From a virus, in IMG/VR virus record IMGVR_UViG_3300030106_001334, positions 1-28,564 of that record: a DNA stretch of 28,564 nt, one strand, 5' to 3'. Below, piece by piece: positions 10,901 through 21,920 of this stretch. Position numbers and translations under genes: made by a program. Position 1 is the stretch's first letter, and the number at the start of each line of letters is the position of its first letter. The notes under the pieces are model-generated. The model saw only the letters and a list, made by a program, of their open reading frames with translations, was not told the origin of the DNA and made no database searches.

Positions 10901-11122
10901 CACAGCAGCGGAGTAACAAAAGCTCTTGTAACAAGTGTTGGTATTAGTTCTATCAAAGTAACAGGTGCTTGTGAGGGTGGTGACTTATTAGAAAGTAATG
11001 GAGATGGTACAGCTAAAGTACAATCCGATGACATCATAAGAAGTAAAACAATCGGTAAAGTAACGATTGGCAACAGCACGACAAGTGTAAAGCTTGTATC
11101 ATGCGTATTATATTGTGGATAA
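7964..11122 (+). CDS. Tail fibre with T7 gp17-like anchor
   Basis: The 1052-residue product begins with a T7-type fibre anchor (residues about 1-150: RRVQYTGNGSAGPFSFSF, later QQSSQKVDRAL and LPEKDSRKGKILGF), which attaches fibres to the tail tube. The rest is a long beta-rich shaft of Gly/Thr/Ser/Asp repeats, including DLGHTTTRWKNAYI, GGDLEIYHDGAGSYIDD and GNVTGNVSGNAETVT, all familiar from marine phage fibres. The C-terminal 130 residues (TGACEGGDLLESNGDG and following) look like a separate tip or trimerisation domain. It has its own gap of 34 bases upstream with a GTGGGG-type ribosome site. Base use is less A-rich than in the internal virion genes, consistent with modular exchange of the receptor-binding gene. 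Receptor is unknown. Confidence 0.88.
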   Translation: MTDIVDVARRVQYTGNGSAGPFSFSFQVNATTEIKVFVGTTQKTITTHYTVSLTSSGAGSVSFTSGNFPTSSETITIVSSVSLARSSVYTTGGPLTASALEADFDTNIMILQQSSQKVDRALAAPEFDATTIDMTLPEKDSRKGKILGFNATSGNPEVVGENATVTTIFNAIGDNTLTLTGTITYGSLSDGTITITAFVDEDDMSSNSATLVPTQQSVKAYVDSQVTAQDLDATTDSGTIAIDLDSETLTIAGGEGIDTSATGNTITIAGEEASTSNKGVASFSSTFFSVSSGAVSLVAAQTGITSLLATDIKIGEDDQTKIDFETADEIHFYAANAHQILLSDGVFRPQTDSDVDLGHTTTRWKNAYIDTITTTGNVSIGGDLDVTGSFDMSDANITNIGSIALDTITNDGSDITLDSSGTIILDADGSGQVEFKDNGVSYGSVNSSGGTGMNLVVSQADENFEIYGTDGSTIIKALEISMANDGAALFKSSVTATSFVGALTGNVTGNVSGNAETVTITANNSANETVYPVFVDGATGTQGLESDTGLSYNPSTGLLSTDSLITGASTFTGNVSHNDNVKAIFGTGGDLEIYHDGAGSYIDDTGTGRLYLRGSDRVQIQKYNSDSGLIEDGITFLEDGAVKIYHDNAKKLETTSSGVTVTGGLTAATGAFTDSVDINIADGDADNAYALTIRNNETTDSRSYGVQIKAGSTSTDKVLDLKQHDGTSLHQFNGDGTISFGNNVLVGSTSTLSSAKLLVKGTKSGTGGNAGQLVVLDDTAYSTTDNGGAIQFAGNFYDGGQVVFATVQGVKSNNTDANNAGDLIFTTKANGGDQTTKMRINDAGAVLIGRDSVGNTGNGHSIRGGDSAIFSRDATGESVQIGRNANDGQLIQFRDNGTEVGDIRVDGTTVSLTGFAGNHESSGISESTEVGTVVSTIDELDTRKLADGSVVDHKNHAKIKVSDSVGDKRVYGVLNKFVEHSSGVTKALVTSVGISSIKVTGACEGGDLLESNGDGTAKVQSDDIIRSKTIGKVTIGNSTTSVKLVSCVLYCG

Positions 11123-11133
11123 AGGAGAATAAA

Positions 11134-11445
11134 ATGGCAGCGACGTGGAAAATTGTAGATACTGAATATAATTTGACATCAGATCATGGAAAAAATTTAA
11201 TCACCACTCTCCACTGGGAATGCACAGATGTCGATGGAGATCATGGTGGGAGAGTTTTTGGATCGATAGGTATACCTGAACCATCAGGTACGTTCATTGA
11301 ATATGAAAAGGTTACGGAGGCAAACTGCATAGCATGGTGTAAATCTGTTATTGGAGATGAACAAGTAAAGGCTTATGAAGATAGTGTAGCTGCACAAATA
11401 GCACTAAGTAAGGCACCCACACAGGGATCAGGAAAACCGTTTTAA
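11134..11445 (+). CDS. Conserved small phage protein after tail fibre
   Basis: This 103-residue protein is taken to start at the ATG at 11134, preceded by a strong AAAGGAG at 11121-11127; an in-frame ATG at 11101 lies inside the fibre gene and lacks a ribosome site. The sequence (MAATWKIVDTEYNLTSDHG, then LHWECTDVDGDHGGRVFGSIG) matches the pattern of a small beta-rich family often found beside fibre genes in marine phages; I recall it as DUF7936, but that number is from memory. It has no signal peptide or membrane segment. The function is not known; the position suggests a fibre accessory or virion protein. Confidence 0.8.
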   Translation: MAATWKIVDTEYNLTSDHGKNLITTLHWECTDVDGDHGGRVFGSIGIPEPSGTFIEYEKVTEANCIAWCKSVIGDEQVKAYEDSVAAQIALSKAPTQGSGKPF

Positions 11446-13912: not shown

Positions 13913-14427
13913 TGGCTAAAAATAATTTTGAAAAAAGTTTAGAGCTTGTATTACAGGCAGAGGGTGGGTTCGTAAATCATCCCAAAGACCCAGGGGGTAT
14001 GACCAACTTAGGAGTTACCAAAGCTGTGTATGATAAATGGATTGGACGTACATCTACTGAAGAAGAAATGAGAGCATTAAAGCCAGAGGATGTAGCACCG
14101 ATCTACAAAAAAAACTATTGGGATAAAATATACGGAGATAAATTAGAAAGCGGATTAGACTTTGCTCTTTTTGATTGGGCGGTAAATTCTGGTCCAGGTC
14201 GTGCAGCTAAAGCTATACAAAGAATTGTAGGAGCAACACAAGACGGTGCAATAGGACCAAAGACTATGCAGAAAATAGCGAACAACGATACTAAGTATAT
14301 GATTGAAAAACTGCATGACCAGCGACAAGCATTTTACCAAGGTCTATCAACCTTTGAGCATTTTGGTCGTGGCTGGACACGCAGAAATAAACATACAAAA
14401 GATGAAGCCTTAAATATGGTAGGCTAA
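13912..14427 (+). CDS. Endolysin, GH108 muramidase
   Basis: The 171-residue protein carries the GH108 signature: catalytic Glu17 in AEGGFVNHPKDPGGMTNLG at the N-terminus, then the family motifs YWDKIYGDKL and DFALFDWAVNSGPGRAAKAIQ; the C-terminal half (GAIGPKTMQKI, then KLHDQRQAFY) is the peptidoglycan-binding-3-type part. GH108 enzymes cleave the N-acetylmuramic acid to N-acetylglucosamine bond in peptidoglycan. There is no N-terminal signal or SAR helix, so it should depend on a holin, and the GTA-type holin lies about 650 bases upstream. Its TAA shares three bases with the TAG of the convergent LexA-like gene. Length and motifs are normal for the family. Confidence 0.93.
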   Translation: MAKNNFEKSLELVLQAEGGFVNHPKDPGGMTNLGVTKAVYDKWIGRTSTEEEMRALKPEDVAPIYKKNYWDKIYGDKLESGLDFALFDWAVNSGPGRAAKAIQRIVGATQDGAIGPKTMQKIANNDTKYMIEKLHDQRQAFYQGLSTFEHFGRGWTRRNKHTKDEALNMVG

Positions 14428-14657
14428 ATTAAATCTCTTATTATCTTGATTGCTCTTGGGTGAGCCTTCTTCGTCTCAATAAATCCTCGTTGAACAAGTT
14501 GATCTATGAGTGAAGCCATTGAAGCCCTGCTTTTGTGACCTGTGTGTTGCATAATTTCCTCATAGGATGGCATATATTTATGTTTACGATAGTATTTTTT
14601 CATAAACTTCAAGACTTGAACTTGACGAGGTGTAAGTGGGAAATCTTCCATAATCAT
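14424..14657 (-). CDS. LexA-type DNA-binding-domain-only regulator
   Basis: The 77-residue protein is the winged-helix domain of LexA and nothing else: PLTPRQVQVLKFMKKYYRK, then MPSYEEIMQHTG, recognition helix region KSRASMASLIDQLVQRGF and a wing ending HPRAIKII. By eye it fits alphaproteobacterial LexA (SKSGIHRLITALEERGF) better than the E. coli form. LexA normally has a C-terminal autoprotease/dimerisation domain of about 120 residues; here the gene stops after the wing, so it cannot be cleaved through RecA. Its ATG overlaps the RecT gene's stop (ATGA), so it is the last gene of the leftward operon. It probably binds LexA-like operators such as the site at 18233-18247; that link is inference. 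Confidence 0.82.
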   Translation of the reverse strand: MIMEDFPLTPRQVQVLKFMKKYYRKHKYMPSYEEIMQHTGHKSRASMASLIDQLVQRGFIETKKAHPRAIKIIRDLI

Positions 14658-15217
14658 TTTGGTTGCTCCTCAGACTTAGTTTCTGGCTCGCTGACGACCT
14701 TCATTTCTGGGTAGTCTTCTGCTTCTTCTCTGGTAATCACACCTGCCATAGCGTCAGGAAATCCATCTCTCAAAGCAAAACCTCTGGCTCTCATTTGTAA
14801 CATCCTATCAGGATATGATTTCCACGGTCCTCGTGTAGTTAGGTCAGCTTTCTTTGCATCTCTCCAAGAAAATGTTTTAGTGATCTCTTCTATCTCACCA
14901 CCCTGAAGTCTTTTGACAGTGCAAGTAGCCGTCCGGTCATCACCTTCACCATCGATCGTTTCTTTGATCCCTTTACAATCGGGATGTCGCCTGACCAATC
15001 CGATCAAAGCATCACCCCAAAGCGTAGGTCTACCGTTGATGACAGCAATGTTTTGAAGTGCTTGAAAGGGATTTAGACCCATTGACATACCTGCTTGGAT
15101 TGCAACAAGACAATCAAGTGGTTTGCCACTGTAGGTTTTAGGCACTAGGTTCGAGCTTGAAAACTGTTTGGCAAGCCTCTCGAGTTGAGCGTAGTCCTTC
15201 GGAACTAAATTAGTCAT
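14654..15217 (-). CDS. recT: RecT-family single-strand annealing protein
   Basis: The 187-residue protein has the conserved core of phage RecT-like recombinases: KPLDCLVAIQAGMSMGLNP, FQALQNIAVINGRPTLWGDA, TFSWRDAKKADL, GPWKSYPDRMLQMRARG and ALRDGFPDAMAG. RecT proteins bind single-stranded ends made by a partner exonuclease and anneal them to complementary DNA. It starts directly after the stop of the YqaJ-type exonuclease gene, the classical pair, and overlaps the LexA-like gene by four bases. The C-terminus is an acidic Glu-rich tail (SEPETKSEEQPK). It is shorter than E. coli RecT (269 residues) because the variable N- and C-terminal extensions are reduced. Confidence 0.85.
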   Translation of the reverse strand: MTNLVPKDYAQLERLAKQFSSSNLVPKTYSGKPLDCLVAIQAGMSMGLNPFQALQNIAVINGRPTLWGDALIGLVRRHPDCKGIKETIDGEGDDRTATCTVKRLQGGEIEEITKTFSWRDAKKADLTTRGPWKSYPDRMLQMRARGFALRDGFPDAMAGVITREEAEDYPEMKVVSEPETKSEEQPK

Positions 15218-16141
15218 CTAAATCTCCCTGATTGAAAATCTTTTGTGAGAACGTGCAGGTTTGGCCGGCATCATTTGCTCTGGTTTGGCTGAAACATTGA
15301 CTGTCTTGTGTTCAATCAAATAGTTTTTAAAAGTTGCCCGTTCTGAATTAAGCTTTTGCATCACCCCCTGGATTTGAGCATCAATAGTTTCCAGGCTATC
15401 CTTCCACTTGGTCGCTTCTGCTTTGGCAGTCATTCGGCTGTCCAACATCACCTCCATCTGTCGTGCAAACGCATGGTCATCCAAGTTGATTACTGGAGGT
15501 TGCTCATTGTCCTCCTCGTAGGGAATATCTTTGTCAACCTTGTACCAAAACTCTCGAACTTTACTCATAATTATGGCAATCATCTTTTCTGATCTTTTGT
15601 ACGGATATAGCTTTACATTTAAATCATTACCCATTTTTGAGATGATCCCAAACCTAGCACCTGTAACCGCCATTTGGGTTTGCAATTGCCATTCATATCT
15701 CATGATGGGGGGAACCGTAGACTTACTTTGAGCATCAGTTTTAAATTCATTAATAATCAAGGATCTCATAGGAAAGTCATTTCCCATTGGATTTGGAATA
15801 ATTAAGTCCTTATCGACTTTAAATTTACTGTCACAAGAACAACCAAGACGTTCCTCAACAATGCGATCGGCTCCATTGACGTCAATTATTTCTAGATTAG
15901 TCCCTTCCCTCATTGCCTCCCGAATTAAATTGTAGCTTTGAAGTTTCACAAAAGGCTCAAGCCAAAGACCTCTTTTCATTGCTTTTGTAGGCTCTTGTGG
16001 AGAGGGAACCACCCCTTGCTTGATTGCCACCCATTGTTTTCTAAGCTCTTCTTTGGTTTGACCTGAAAAACTATTTTCACCTTCAACAATCGTTGCGACT
16101 GTAGTTGCTCCAACTTCCTTTCCATCAACTGTGTGTTTCAT
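15218..16141 (-). CDS. YqaJ-type viral recombinase exonuclease
   Basis: I choose the ATG at 16141, which overlaps the upstream stop (TGATG), giving 307 residues. The nuclease core is visible: RGLWLEPFV with Glu62, CSCDSKF with Asp104, and INEFKTD with Glu132 and Lys134, the D-(E/x)xK pattern of lambda-exonuclease/YqaJ enzymes; YEWQLQTQMAVTGARFGI follows, typical of YqaJ. Such enzymes degrade the 5' strand of linear duplex DNA. Residues about 215-285 add a helical coiled-coil-like extension. Its partner is the RecT protein encoded right after it. Metal-dependent activity is known for the family and inferred here. Confidence 0.82.
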   Translation of the reverse strand: MKHTVDGKEVGATTVATIVEGENSFSGQTKEELRKQWVAIKQGVVPSPQEPTKAMKRGLWLEPFVKLQSYNLIREAMREGTNLEIIDVNGADRIVEERLGCSCDSKFKVDKDLIIPNPMGNDFPMRSLIINEFKTDAQSKSTVPPIMRYEWQLQTQMAVTGARFGIISKMGNDLNVKLYPYKRSEKMIAIIMSKVREFWYKVDKDIPYEEDNEQPPVINLDDHAFARQMEVMLDSRMTAKAEATKWKDSLETIDAQIQGVMQKLNSERATFKNYLIEHKTVNVSAKPEQMMPAKPARSHKRFSIREI

Positions 16142-16371
16142 CAGAACCCCCATACTTCAGGCCAAGAACATGTCTGAGACATGGCACAACCAACAGCTAA
16201 AAAAATGTAAATTGAAACAAACAAACAAACTGCTCCGAAAATTTCAGTCAAAGTCTCTTTAAGTTTGTTAAGTTTGTTGAGTGTAGCAAGTCTGTTAGGG
16301 TCAAGAAAATCTGACACGTTATATATTATGCGAATAATTTCACTGTAGTAGGTTATAAGTATTTGTTTCAT
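16141..16371 (-). CDS. Small membrane protein of recombination operon
   Basis: The 76-residue product has a helical N-terminal half (about residues 1-45) and one membrane helix at about 46-64 (FGAVCLFVSIYIFLAVGC), followed by a short Trp-rich tail containing CSWPEVWGF. A strong GAGGAG lies just upstream on the minus strand, and the stop overlaps the exonuclease start. I do not recognise a family. Its place before the exonuclease/RecT pair suggests it is co-expressed with them; a superinfection-exclusion or host-interaction role is possible but unsupported. Confidence 0.6.
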   Translation of the reverse strand: MKQILITYYSEIIRIIYNVSDFLDPNRLATLNKLNKLKETLTEIFGAVCLFVSIYIFLAVGCAMSQTCSWPEVWGF

Positions 16372-16989: not shown

Positions 16990-17435
16990 ACGTACTTGGT
17001 ATGGTAATAAATGCTGGACTTAATCATAAGTTCACTTACCTGATAGCATTTTATCTTCTCTGAAACATGGCTTGGATGACTAGTAAACCACCCTTCTTCC
17101 ACGCAATGTTTAAAGACAAGTGATACAAAAGCTTTTTTGAGATGGGGAAATCTTTCTAGGATTTGTTTTTGTGTTGACCATCTTTTCATAAAAGTCCTCA
17201 ACGTCACAAATGCACCGATCAATCTTTTATCAAGATGGCTTCTGAAATAAAACGTAGCTCTACGCATCTTGGGATCATTGGGTATGGGATAGTTTTGATA
17301 GTTAAAAAAGGCAAGTTCAAGTGATAGATTATGGATAATACTTTCTATAAGCTCAGGTGGCGCAAGGATATGATTTCTGTCATCTTTTTCAATAGCAGTG
17401 CCTGACTTCTGATTGTTTCTAAAATTAAAGTTCAT
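16956..17435 (-). CDS. Unknown 159-residue protein downstream of serine recombinase
   Basis: I use ATG 17435, which overlaps the recombinase stop (TAATG) and has GGAGAAAA just upstream; an earlier in-frame start would lie inside the recombinase. The product has a basic, helix-rich middle (RRATFYFRSHLDKRLIGAF, TLRTFMKRWSTQKQILERF) and a segment resembling a winged-helix region (HLKKAFVSLVFKHCVEEGWF). It may be a DNA-binding accessory protein, for example a partner of the recombinase, but no family is recognised. Its last codons coincide with the first bases of the tandem palindrome at 16952-16989. Confidence 0.65.
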   Translation of the reverse strand: MNFNFRNNQKSGTAIEKDDRNHILAPPELIESIIHNLSLELAFFNYQNYPIPNDPKMRRATFYFRSHLDKRLIGAFVTLRTFMKRWSTQKQILERFPHLKKAFVSLVFKHCVEEGWFTSHPSHVSEKIKCYQVSELMIKSSIYYHTKYVSSRNKLEFIS

Positions 17436-18205
17436 TATTTTTCTCCATAAATTCGTTTGACTAAGTTTGAAACATTCGACGGACCCCACTTGCCACCACG
17501 CCTGGTTTTGTACATGTCGGTGTGATTGTTGAGATAGGATGCCATTTCACGTAAACTGTAGCCTTGTTTGACAAGATCGACGATGACAGGTCGCATCCTT
17601 TCAGCAAAAGCATCTGCTTCCTCCTGAATAGCTTCATGCCCCTTCTCTCTTGCGTCTTCCATGTTTGAGTGAATGCCTAGCTGGGTGATTTTCTTCCCTG
17701 ACTTGGTGGTGTAGTGACCTTTGTCCTCAATGACTTCATTGATGCGTCCCAACGCTGATTTTGTGTTTAAAGATATTTTTTCTCGCATGTCCTGGGCCAT
17801 GGCGACTTTGATGGCAAGAACAAGCTTGTTTTGCTTTGGGTCGGCAGACAACATAGGATCGTCACAGACAATCAAGTTTACCTTCCCAGTCTCAACATGT
17901 TGCTCAAAGAATTGAAGCCCATGCCAAGCAGTCCTGAACAGTCTGGAGATCGAGCTGACAATGACTGTCGCTTTCTTTTTCTTGGCTGCGTCCATTGCTT
18001 CCTTCAAAACAGGTCTTTTGTCAGGATGAACTTTACCACTGATGTTTTCTTCAAACCATTCAACCGTATGATCGCCACCGTTGAGGAAGTCACGAATGTC
18101 CTTTTTGTCTCTCTCTGTTTCCTGTTTATTGGTCGATACACGGACATAAGCTATGTAGTTTCCTTTGTGTGGCTGACCGGATGTGCTTTGGTTAGCTGGT
18201 GACAT
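17435..18205 (-). CDS. Serine recombinase (resolvase/invertase family)
   Basis: The 256-residue protein has the catalytic domain of serine recombinases: YIAYVRVSTNKQ with nucleophile Ser24, and SSISRLFR with Arg88 and Arg91 in the place of the catalytic Arg pair, then a long helix with QDMREKISLNTKSAL. The C-terminal 80 residues include IVDLVKQGYSLREMASYLN and a basic end (KTRRGGKWGPSNVSNLVKRIY), a helix-turn-helix for DNA binding. It is longer than small resolvases (about 185 residues) but much shorter than phage large serine integrases (about 500), lacking their zinc ribbon and coiled coil. It has an AAAGGAG ribosome site. It opens the leftward operon; integration or genome resolution are both possible. 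Confidence 0.9.
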   Translation of the reverse strand: MSPANQSTSGQPHKGNYIAYVRVSTNKQETERDKKDIRDFLNGGDHTVEWFEENISGKVHPDKRPVLKEAMDAAKKKKATVIVSSISRLFRTAWHGLQFFEQHVETGKVNLIVCDDPMLSADPKQNKLVLAIKVAMAQDMREKISLNTKSALGRINEVIEDKGHYTTKSGKKITQLGIHSNMEDAREKGHEAIQEEADAFAERMRPVIVDLVKQGYSLREMASYLNNHTDMYKTRRGGKWGPSNVSNLVKRIYGEK

Positions 18206-18232
18206 TAAATGTTCTCCTTTGTATCTATAACA

Positions 18233-18247
18233 GTTCGTTTAATGTTC
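18233..18247. promoter_or_regulatory. Alphaproteobacterial-type LexA (SOS) box
   Basis: The sequence GTTCGTTTAATGTTC is an exact GTTC-N7-GTTC, the direct-repeat LexA operator known from alphaproteobacteria. It lies between the recombinase start and the predicted leftward minus-10, where a bound repressor would block leftward transcription. The exact pattern is seen; its use as a LexA site is inferred. Confidence 0.65.
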
Positions 18248-18255
18248 GTCTTTAC

Positions 18256-18278
18256 TGTACATATACCAGGATGGTACA
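18256..18278. promoter_or_regulatory. Imperfect inverted repeat, candidate operator
   Basis: TGTACAT at 18256-18262 and ATGGTACA at 18271-18278 form an inverted repeat with one extra base in the right arm. GTAC centres are 17 bp apart, and the repeat overlaps both predicted promoters. It is a candidate binding site for the RHH protein encoded 46 bases downstream. Confidence 0.45.
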
Positions 18279-18323
18279 TTGTGCAAGACCTAGATGTTAC
18301 TTTTTTTTGAACGAAGGTGAATT

Positions 18324-18473
18324 ATGAAGCAGGTACACATTAGAATAAACGACGAAGTCTATGAAAAACTTAAAGAATTAGCCGAGAAGGATCGTAGATC
18401 AATGGCTAGTTTGGCTGAGTATATTTTATCAAAAGGCTTGCACGATTTTAAAAAAGAGCTTGAAAAAGCATGA
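18324..18473 (+). CDS. Ribbon-helix-helix regulator (Arc/CopG type)
   Basis: The 49-residue protein starts at ATG 18324 behind GAAGGTGA. It has the whole RHH fold: a beta strand QVHIRIND, helix A EVYEKLKELAEKDRR, and helix B MASLAEYILSKGLHDF. RHH proteins dimerise and insert the paired strands into the major groove. As the first gene of the rightward operon, beside the divergent control region, it is well placed to autoregulate and to balance the two operons, as Arc does in P22. Its stop overlaps the next start (ATGA). Confidence 0.78.
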   Translation: MKQVHIRINDEVYEKLKELAEKDRRSMASLAEYILSKGLHDFKKELEKA

Positions 18474-18694
18474 CCCCGGAGTTCAGTCAACCAACACTTG
18501 CATTTTTGCTATTGGAGTTCCCTACCCTTGTTGATTGTCAGGTTGTCGTAAAGCATCTGGTTGGTTTCATCCATCACAATTTGTTCGTGAATTGTCACAA
18601 TCACGATGACAGCTATGCATTTTGGTTTGAACACTGGATGCAACACAATCATTTTCGAGAAGTTCCACCTTCAAGACCGAAGGTGCTTGAATGA
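18470..18694 (+). CDS. Unknown 74-residue protein, His/Phe-rich
   Basis: The protein shares a four-base ATGA overlap with the RHH gene upstream and with the nuclease gene downstream, which argues strongly for translation. It contains HHNLFVNCHNHDDSYAFWF and ends HFREVPPSRPKVLE. The many His, Cys and Asp residues in the middle could bind metal, but the spacing does not match a known motif. No family is recognised. Confidence 0.6.
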   Translation: MTPEFSQPTLAFLLLEFPTLVDCQVVVKHLVGFIHHNLFVNCHNHDDSYAFWFEHWMQHNHFREVPPSRPKVLE

Positions 18695-19029
18695 GGTTTA
18701 ACAAGTTCAATGCCCACAAAACCGAGGTCGATGGCATTTTATTTGACAGTAAGAAAGAAGCCAAAAGATATAGTGAATTAAAGTATTTGGAGAAAGCAGG
18801 TCAGATACACAACCTGGAGCTTCAACCCAAGTTTGAATGTATAGTGAAGGAGAAGAAGATATGTACCTACAGAGCAGATTTCAGATATTTCGACAAGCAC
18901 CAGAAGGGAGTGTTGGGTCAGGAAGGAACCATGGTAGTCGAGGACGTAAAGGGCTTCAAAACACCAACCTACAGGTTGAAAAAGAAGCTGGTCGAGGCAT
19001 TGTTCCAGGTGAAGATAACCGAATTATGA
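18691..19029 (+). CDS. DUF1064 nuclease-like protein
   Basis: The 112-residue product matches the DUF1064 pattern (PF06356): NKFNAHKTEVDGILFDSKKE at the N-terminus, then ELKYLEKAGQIHNLELQPKF, YRADFRYFD, VVEDVKGFKTPTYRLKKKL. Family members have a PD-(D/E)xK/Vsr-like nuclease fold; here FDSKKEA (Glu24 region), ADF and EDVKG carry the likely active-site acids and Lys. Phage members usually sit among replication genes and may resolve or nick branched DNA, but the reaction is not firmly established. GAAGGTG precedes the start. It overlaps the next gene by four bases. Confidence 0.85.
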   Translation: MRFNKFNAHKTEVDGILFDSKKEAKRYSELKYLEKAGQIHNLELQPKFECIVKEKKICTYRADFRYFDKHQKGVLGQEGTMVVEDVKGFKTPTYRLKKKLVEALFQVKITEL

Positions 19030-19322
19030 TTACAACAATTGATTTAGCCTTGGTTTTTCAAGAAATAACAAAAATTTCATTTACGGTTATGTATGAGGAT
19101 TGTCGAAAGGACAACGAGTTCATTCACCTGCGTTTCATGTGGACAGGCGTTTGTCGTTTCTTCAAGCGATCCTATCCTCAAATCGCTAAAACAATTAGAA
19201 AGGATCATTCGACTTGCGTGTTTTATTACAAGCGTCATCTAATGATGATGGACAAATACGACTGGTACTCAGAAAGCTACCTTCTTTTGTTGGATGACAC
19301 ACTGGATCGTTTTGGGGTTTAA
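19026..19322 (+). CDS. Stand-alone DnaA domain IV-like protein
   Basis: I start at ATG 19026 (ATGA overlap with the nuclease stop), giving 98 residues. Residues about 9-68 align with the C-terminal DNA-binding domain of bacterial DnaA: LHLRFMWTG-like HLRFMWTGVCRFFKRSY, then PQIAKTIRKDHSTCVFYYKRH. DHST at 60-63 matches the DnaA signature DHTT, and Arg36 fits the base-contacting Arg of DnaA. The AAA+ and N-terminal domains are absent, so it could bind DnaA boxes but not assemble an ATP-dependent filament. The next gene carries two perfect DnaA boxes, the likely targets. Whether it recruits or displaces host DnaA is not known. Confidence 0.75.
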   Translation: MITTIDLALVFQEITKISFTVMYEDCRKDNEFIHLRFMWTGVCRFFKRSYPQIAKTIRKDHSTCVFYYKRHLMMMDKYDWYSESYLLLLDDTLDRFGV

Positions 19323-20300
19323 ATGTTGGATATGCCACCAGATAAAACGTCCAAGCAAGTCTTAAGGGAAATAAACAAGGCTCGACAAGACATCCTTCGG
19401 CCACCCAAAGAACACAACACCTGTGAAACCGGCAAGGAACAGGATCAAGCATTCTCCGCATTCTTCAAAGCACCGAGCAGAGCCTTACAGGATAAACGAC
19501 TAGCGACAAGACCAAGGACTTTTATTATTCTCTGTGCCTTGTGTCAGTTTATTGGACCAACAGGATACTGTTATCCCAAGCAAGCACGGATCGCACGACA
19601 GCTAGGCATGAGCCAGCAAGGTGTCAGTAAACACATAAGATTGCTGGTTGATTATGGGTATGTCGATAAGGTTCGAAATGAATATAAGTTTCGTAAAAAC
19701 GGACATACATCAGCCACCTGGCGCATACTTTTTGATCCATCAATTGACCAAGAACAGGGGTACAAAAATACCCTCGAACACGATGAACGCTTTCAAGAGC
19801 AAGAAGCCGAGGAAACCATGAAAAAAGTAAATGAAAACAATAAGAAGAGTAAGTTATCCACAGAGTTATCCACAGGTAGGCAAAAACAGGCAAAAAAGAA
19901 GGAAAAAGAGGGTACAAAAACAACCCAATTAGGTTGTATGACCCCACAACCCAATGAGGTTGTACAAAAACTGACCAATAGAACTAATATATTTAATATT
20001 ATAGGAAAAGATATTTGTAAGCTTTATGCTCATTTGTTGGACGACATCGTTGGAGGTCGAGGTGAGTGGCGGTGGGACGAGAGGCAAGAGCAAATAGCTC
20101 AAGGGTTCTTAGACAAGGGAATGACAGTCGATAGCTTCAAGGCATCAGCAAAGAGAACTCTGTACAGTTGCAAGAAGGAGAGCAGACGACCACCCTACTC
20201 GCTTGCATTCTTTGAACAGGCCATGCCACAAACAAAGAAACCCACCTTGTCAGCTAGTGATGTCATCAAAAGAGTAACCAACAAGAGTAAAATAAAATGA
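19323..20300 (+). CDS. Replication initiator with N-terminal winged helix and internal origin
   Basis: The 325-residue protein has an N-terminal winged helix at about 63-137 (TFIILCALCQFIGPTGYCYP, ARIARQLGMSQQGVSKHIRL, DYGYVDKVRNEY), a polar Lys/Glu/Thr-rich linker (about 150-215) and a helical C-terminal domain (about 228-310, KLYAHLLDDIVGG, SAKRTLYSCKKES). This is the layout of lambda O-like and plasmid-type initiators, where the N-terminus binds iterons and the C-terminus recruits the helicase. The linker is encoded by the DnaA boxes and iterons listed separately. No phage helicase gene is in the window, so host DnaB is the probable partner. It starts directly after the DnaA-like gene's stop; the next gene overlaps it by four bases. 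Confidence 0.75.
   Translation: MLDMPPDKTSKQVLREINKARQDILRPPKEHNTCETGKEQDQAFSAFFKAPSRALQDKRLATRPRTFIILCALCQFIGPTGYCYPKQARIARQLGMSQQGVSKHIRLLVDYGYVDKVRNEYKFRKNGHTSATWRILFDPSIDQEQGYKNTLEHDERFQEQEAEETMKKVNENNKKSKLSTELSTGRQKQAKKKEKEGTKTTQLGCMTPQPNEVVQKLTNRTNIFNIIGKDICKLYAHLLDDIVGGRGEWRWDERQEQIAQGFLDKGMTVDSFKASAKRTLYSCKKESRRPPYSLAFFEQAMPQTKKPTLSASDVIKRVTNKSKIK
19854..19862 (+). promoter_or_regulatory. DnaA box 1 (TTATCCACA)
   Basis: A perfect match to the bacterial DnaA box consensus TTATNCACA. It encodes Leu-Ser-Thr of the initiator linker. The second box follows with a 12-base repeat length, so both face nearly the same side of the helix. Confidence 0.75.
19866..19874 (+). promoter_or_regulatory. 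DnaA box 2 (TTATCCACA)
   Basis: A second perfect consensus DnaA box in the same orientation, 12 bases after the first. It encodes a second Leu-Ser-Thr, so the duplication is visible in the protein as LSTELSTG. Confidence 0.75.
19878..19897 (+). repeat. Tandem 10-base repeat AGGCAAAAA(C/A)
   Basis: AGGCAAAAAC at 19878-19887 is followed at once by AGGCAAAAAA at 19888-19897. The ten-base period places the A-tracts on one face of the helix, which would bend the DNA. It lies between the DnaA boxes and the palindromic iterons. Confidence 0.6.
19921..19964. repeat. Two palindromic iterons
   Basis: CAACCCAATTAGGTTGTA (19921-19938) and CAACCCAATGAGGTTGTA (19947-19964) differ by one base and are 26 bases apart. 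Each is a palindrome of the form CAACC-N6-GGTTG. They are probably the binding sites for the winged-helix domain of the initiator. Confidence 0.7.
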
Positions 20301-21289: not shown

Positions 21290-21514
21290 ATGCAAAACTT
21301 TAAACAAATAATTTTTAGCAAAGAAGAATATGAGATGCTCTGTGAAATAATTGCAGTAAATTACAAGCATCCTCAGTACATTGATGGCAGCATTGTTTGC
21401 AATGGAGATCAATTAGAAACATGGAAGAATATAAACAAGAAAATTAGGGGTGAAGAATTTGCACCCCCCCTGGTAAAGATAGCAACAATAAATGGAGAAA
21501 AAGTAAATGGCTAG
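21290..21514 (+). CDS. Unknown 74-residue protein before SSB
   Basis: The ATG follows the previous TAG directly, and the last eight bases overlap the ssb start. The sequence (IIFSKEEYEMLCEIIAVNYK, then NGDQLETWKNINKKIRGEEF) suggests two helices around a short loop. It contains a run of seven C (21464-21470) within the codons for APP. No family is recognised. Confidence 0.6.
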   Translation: MQNFKQIIFSKEEYEMLCEIIAVNYKHPQYIDGSIVCNGDQLETWKNINKKIRGEEFAPPLVKIATINGEKVNG

Positions 21515-21920
21515 TTTAAACAAAGTAACCTTGATCGGTAATGTAGGACGAGATGTAGAGATTAAGGTTTTTGACAATGGGGGTAAGATTGCCAAGTTTC
21601 CATTAGCGACGACGGAAAGTTACAAGAACAAATCGGGAGAGAAAGTAGAGAACACCACTTGGCATAACATTGTTATTCGTTCTGAGGGATTGTGTAGAAT
21701 TGCTGAGATGTATGTTGGGAAAGGTTCTCAGATTTGTGTTGAAGGAAAGATTTCTGTGAGAGAATATTCAACTAAAGATGGCAACAAGGCAAAGCAGACG
21801 GAAATTGTTGTTGATAGCTTTGGGGGTCAACTTATTCTTCTTTCTAGGAAAGATCCTAAACCTCAACAGTCTTTACAGAACTTAGGAAATTTTGATCAAC
21901 AAATAACTACGGGGGTTTAA
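21507..21920 (+). CDS. ssb: Single-stranded DNA-binding protein
   Basis: The 137-residue protein has an SSB OB fold: LNKVTLIGNVGRDVEIK at the N-terminus, then KFPLATTESYKNKSGEK, TTWHNIVIRSEGLCRIAE, YVGKGSQICVEGKISVREY. It should coat single-stranded DNA during replication and RecT-mediated annealing. Bacterial SSBs end with an acidic tip (DDDIPF in E. coli) that recruits partners; this one ends FDQQITTGV and lacks it. It overlaps the upstream gene by eight bases and the terminase small subunit gene by one (TAATG). Confidence 0.93.
   Translation: MASLNKVTLIGNVGRDVEIKVFDNGGKIAKFPLATTESYKNKSGEKVENTTWHNIVIRSEGLCRIAEMYVGKGSQICVEGKISVREYSTKDGNKAKQTEIVVDSFGGQLILLSRKDPKPQQSLQNLGNFDQQITTGV

Follow-up and report, generated by a model that had tools for sequence, protein, structure and literature searches.

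A conserved marine podovirus cassette joining a stand-alone DnaA domain IV protein to a lambda-O-like initiator with a predicted internal origin

How a small phage may copy its genome with the replication machinery of its host, and what a single DNA-binding domain of the bacterial initiator DnaA would contribute, is the question raised by a locus in the IMG/VR virus record IMGVR_UViG_3300030106_001334. The window, the whole stretch of 28,564 nucleotides that was analysed, carries the structural genes of a podovirus, with a phrog_332 head-tail adaptor, a terminase and an internal virion protein identified in a Pfam and PHROG scan. A DUF7936 protein (Pfam E 4e-22) also lies in the structural region, at 11101-11445. 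In a near-identical contig of 31,275 bases a major-capsid-like ORF comes first and tail-tube-like ORFs are present, the names resting on position and on likeness to Methylophilales phage MEP301; the two ends of this contig have sequence in common. By terminase, the nearest annotated phage record is that of MEP301 (65% identity), followed by Pelagibacter phage EXVC031P (44%). MEP301 shares the recombinase, YqaJ, SSB and a remote initiator with the window phage but differs in the absence of a Bac_DnaA_C match. A bacterial genome collection scanned with TerL contained no close relative, and hence gave no indication that sequenced hosts carry such a phage as a lysogen.

The locus consists of two divergent operons, and every gene that the earlier note had named in them was recovered at its position in Pfam and PHROG searches:

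14424..14657, minus strand: LexA-type winged helix, 77 aa (Pfam LexA_DNA_bind 2.5e-13)
14654..15217, minus strand: RecT single-strand annealing protein (Pfam 6e-9; PHROG 561 2e-51)
15218..16153, minus strand: YqaJ/RecE-like exonuclease (PHROG 434 1.8e-19; Pfam YqaJ 2.7e-4, just under the cut-off)
17435..18205, minus strand: small serine recombinase of the resolvase/invertase type (Pfam Resolvase 1.5e-21; PHROG 125)
18206..18323, no strand assigned: divergent promoter region, holding GTTCN7GTTC at 18233-18247
18324..18473, plus strand: RHH (Arc/CopG-like) regulator, 49 aa (Pfam RHH_5 1.7e-7)
18691..19029, plus strand: DUF1064 nuclease family (4.4e-22; PHROG 190, annotated as Holliday junction resolvase, 2e-34)
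19026..19322, plus strand: predicted stand-alone DnaA domain IV, 98 aa (family profile, fold and contact residues; Bac_DnaA_C 0.0022 alone)
19323..20300, plus strand: lambda-O-like initiator (HTH_36 1e-11; PHROGs for phage replication initiators and O-like proteins)
21507..21920, plus strand: SSB (Pfam SSB 1.7e-27)

The stop of DUF1064 and the start of the DnaA-IV gene overlap (ATGA). The scan of window ORFs against Pfam and PHROGs, which did not take in several small ORFs, recognised no polymerase, primase or helicase, and none was seen among the ORFs of 5 kb of the near-identical contig; within that range the claim that no phage helicase or polymerase is present was borne out. A lambda-P-like helicase loader was likewise not found among the ORFs scanned.

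The arrangement is a feature of the lineage. DUF1064, DnaA IV and initiator follow in this order on one strand in 23 distinct loci in which the DnaA-IV gene and both flanks are visible; in all of these DUF1064 overlaps or directly precedes the DnaA-IV gene, and the initiator lies within about 2.5 kb after it. On the opposite strand the order recombinase, exonuclease, RecT and LexA-like HTH is fixed in all loci of sufficient extent; some of these loci gave no match to the RecT or the LexA profile. In most relatives whose locus reaches the LexA-like gene, this gene adjoins RecT. The RHH regulator is detected in part of the relatives only. Random gene order in relatives, which would have spoken against a module, was not observed; order is kept across the marine podovirus lineage. 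Of the four genes whose co-occurrence had been proposed as a check, DUF1064, DnaA IV and the initiator do stay together, but SSB is not a fixed member, its profile appearing downstream in few relatives.

Some members of the lineage are without the DnaA-IV gene (L029, L056, L064, L070, L074 and others), and several of these still have a DnaA box. Other small proteins stand between DUF1064 and the initiator in place of DnaA IV in L056, L064 and L074; among them are a putative HTH protein ('SYCIKDAAKILDVPEPNLRRYA'), encoded immediately behind DUF1064, and a DNA-methyltransferase-like ORF in L074.

The product of 19026-19322 falls under the Pfam cut-off when searched singly (Bac_DnaA_C, PF08299, E 0.0022), and a single-sequence search of phage records with it found nothing; the family profile was required. 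All 24 of 24 family members match PF08299 (best 1e-17), and the family profile finds E. coli DnaA domain IV (1j1v) in the PDB at E 2.1e-22. The AlphaFold model of the window protein has a pLDDT of 92.5 and matches DnaA DNA-binding domains at Z 11-15 over 91-94 residues, best 3pvp (Z 14.9, 94 residues aligned) and 1j1v (Z 13.4, 92 residues), the first non-DnaA entry scoring 5.7. At the positions known from 1J1V to contact the DnaA box (E. coli R399, R407, P423, D433, H434, T435 and T436) the window protein has R, R, P, D, H, S and T, with Ser replacing T435. Both the AAA+ domain and domain I of full-length DnaA are absent, the 98 aa corresponding to domain IV only. Family profile, predicted fold and predicted DNA-contact residues agree, and unmistakably point to a DnaA domain IV, as the earlier note had proposed. 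The gene is under purifying selection (dN 0.29 and dS 2.1 between the window and L004; dN/dS 0.1-0.25 in other pairs).

The initiator gene contains the elements of a putative origin:

19854-19862 and 19866-19874, plus strand: two exact DnaA boxes TTATCCACA (exact match)
19920-19938 and 19946-19964, no strand assigned: two 19-bp palindromic iterons ACAACCCAAT(T/G)AGGTTGTA at 26-bp spacing (pattern search)
19960..20039, no strand assigned: AT-rich putative unwinding element (GC 0.20-0.22, about 80% AT)

The iteron spacing of 26 bp is common to L003, L004, L005, L006 and L010, and the order of box, iteron and AT-rich DNA recurs in relatives whose initiators are just 22-40% identical. Exact boxes number 19 across the initiator genes of 28 initiator clusters, where 0.72 are expected (about 27-fold excess); the expectation comes from 1000 synonymous shuffles in which neither protein nor codon usage changes, with a maximum of 4. 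Outside initiator genes there are 2 exact boxes in 301 kb of the records examined, or 0.007/kb against 0.66/kb inside. The box has + orientation and codes for L-S-T in the window and L003, and has - orientation and codes for V-D-N in L005 and L006. As the same 9-mer is found in opposite orientation and in different codons across relatives, selection acts on the DNA and not on the peptide. Between the window and L003, residues that are unchanged have identical codons at 32/32 positions in the origin and 161/233 elsewhere (p 2.6e-5).

The initiator protein is predicted to consist of a winged-helix domain, a disordered linker and a C-terminal helical domain. Confidence in its model is lowest at residues 181-210 and 212-219, which separate the winged helix from the C-terminal helices, and this low-confidence linker overlaps the origin-coding region. 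The C-terminal domain itself has a low-confidence model, with generic MarR-type matches only and no confident fold match. An N-terminal winged helix with iterons and an AT-rich element inside the gene corresponds to a lambda-O-like protein, and DnaA boxes beside iterons and AT-rich DNA to an iteron-type origin. Judged from sequence, the internal origin predicted where the initiator gene encodes the linker is real, and this part of the first reading, an O-like initiator with its origin inside 19323-20300, is upheld by the two boxes, two iterons and AT-rich stretch.

The lambda O gene carries ori-lambda in its linker-coding part, the same arrangement as in the window initiator. The two systems share a winged-helix initiator, palindromic iterons of about 19 bp and an AT-rich stretch. 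In the lambda origin, 19-bp inverted-repeat iterons bind O dimers and a 40-bp AT-rich region adjoins them (PMC5043065). The window phage differs from lambda in its exact DnaA boxes, two clear iterons and added DnaA-IV gene. Iteron plasmids such as P1, F, pSC101, R6K and RK2 also combine DnaA boxes, iterons and an AT-rich element; these plasmids use host DnaA, and the phage iterons differ in being palindromic.

Small Bac_DnaA_C proteins are also found in the pelagiphages HTVC010P, Greip EXVC021P and HTVC203P and in the Rhizobium phages RHph_TM3_3_3 and RHph_N28_2. These proteins are longer, about 150-190 aa with an N-terminal extension, against 98 aa in the window. The Rhizobium phages have DUF1064, a DUF1376 protein and the DnaA-like protein close together but in another order, with the DnaA-like gene after the DUF1376 gene. 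No exact box occurs in the Rhizobium stretches examined and one occurs in HTVC010P (L196), a lone TTATCCACA at 667, shortly before the first annotated gene (725-913), which itself precedes the terminase. It is possible that position 667 marks the origin region of pelagiphages carrying a DnaA-C protein. DnaA has been listed among the phage proteins present in all HTVC010P-related genomes (PMC6811365), and DnaA-like proteins have been noted on a Rickettsia plasmid (PMC1800911). The stand-alone domain IV had been called unusual, but many phages already have such DnaA-C proteins annotated. The parts are singly known; what is new, within the reach of the searches, is their fixed combination with an initiator-internal origin bearing canonical DnaA boxes. 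No study of the function of stand-alone DnaA-C domains was found in the open-licence papers searched.

The compact divergent layout, an O-like initiator with its internal origin, a stand-alone DnaA IV, the lack of a recognised polymerase or helicase and the keeping together of the genes suggest a module built to use host replication machinery. The window can be read, tentatively and from its sequence, as the host-dependent replication module of a small marine podovirus. Most likely it has an iteron-plasmid-like origin together with a phage-supplied DnaA-box binder that would assist the phage origin, compete with host DnaA, or both. Initiator dimers would occupy the iterons and melt the AT-rich stretch, and the complex would be shaped in part by occupied DnaA boxes, as it is in iteron plasmids. 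Through its C-terminal domain the initiator may recruit the host helicase, and DNA synthesis would be carried out by the host replisome. The domain-IV protein would sit on DnaA boxes without ATPase activity, on those of the phage origin first, and phage initiation may thereby become independent of how much active host DnaA is available. At a later stage, the recombination operon (recombinase, exonuclease, RecT) would act with DUF1064 in processing recombination-dependent replication.

A review describes DnaA sites as necessary at the origins of iteron plasmids and the AAA+ domain of DnaA as dispensable (PMC5043065), and pSC101 RepA is reviewed as contacting DnaA domains I and IV (PMC4980987). 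As the AAA+ domain is dispensable at such origins and RepA touches domains I and IV, a naked domain IV could replace DnaA there. By its nature it would also compete at the host oriC, probably as a side effect of the phage origin role, or possibly as the main point.

The box and the gene do not travel together. Among initiator clusters a box is present in 5 with the DnaA-IV gene and 3 without it, and absent from 6 with and 6 without (Fisher p 0.67). This two-by-two table rejects the idea that the phage DnaA-IV protein is the sole reason for the boxes. As the presence of a box is not tied to that of the gene, host DnaA probably also reads the box, and presumably is its reader in phages that have no DnaA-IV gene. 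As the gene also occurs in genomes without an exact box, its target need not be the phage origin.

In the strongest rival, the domain-IV protein is a dominant-negative competitor, which would cover the boxes of oriC without the DNA-opening AAA+ domain and so turn host initiation off, leaving the host helicase and polymerase to serve the phage. Its naked DNA-binding domain with canonical contact residues, the retention of the gene by phages without an exact box in their own origin, and the similar small DnaA-C proteins of many unrelated phages are in keeping with such a role; against it, boxes at the phage's own origin would be covered too, and about a third of box-bearing clusters have no gene. 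Competition with the host as the main role is given a lesser chance, roughly one in three, than action at the phage origin, itself a little short of even, and the data do not separate the two. That the protein targets host initiation, as first proposed, is thus possible.

DnaA itself is a known transcription factor. The origin boxes might then serve host DnaA only, with the domain-IV protein regulating transcription in the early operon or in the host, and L029, L056 and L070 have boxes without the gene. This is rather unlikely, as the gene keeps its place beside DUF1064 and the initiator and as exact boxes outside initiators are about as frequent as chance predicts (2 in 301 kb), which leaves no promoter target of canonical specificity visible in the phage. 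Slightly more doubtful still is a split DnaA, in which domain IV and the O-like initiator together would replace host DnaA at the iteron origin and displace it from oriC. If it were true, one small protein would license phage initiation and silence that of the host.

The module had also been said to target SOS. The LexA-like protein has the DNA-binding domain (2.5e-13) but not the self-cleaving S24 domain of a LexA repressor, its 77 aa being winged helix only. The 18233-18247 site, GTTCGTTTAATGTTC, is an exact alphaproteobacterial LexA-box word and only a candidate site. GTTCN7GTTC is seen twice in the window against 0.74 expected, one copy lying in the divergent promoter that separates the recombinase and RHH genes. 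In the comparable region it is found at 3/26 loci, in two of which it lies far from the recombinase end of the DNA scanned, and as a conserved SOS operator it was rejected. In L062 and L082 the motif lies somewhere between the recombinase and DUF1064. An SOS-linked lysis-lysogeny switch, in which the LexA-like and RHH proteins control the divergent promoters upon host damage, is consistent with the LexA winged helix kept beside RecT and the site at 18233, but is highly improbable given the missing peptidase domain, a motif in 3/26 relatives only, a bacterial genome collection with no close TerL relative and a recombinase of the small resolvase/invertase type. The claim on SOS is not sustained, and the link is kept as a lead.

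Small DnaA-C proteins have been annotated in phages of abundant marine bacteria, and here one of them is tied to a defined, box-bearing origin. The fixed cassette allows a clear in vitro or plasmid test of whether such phages employ the protein to drive their own origin or to shut down that of the host, and so of how host replication may be captured.
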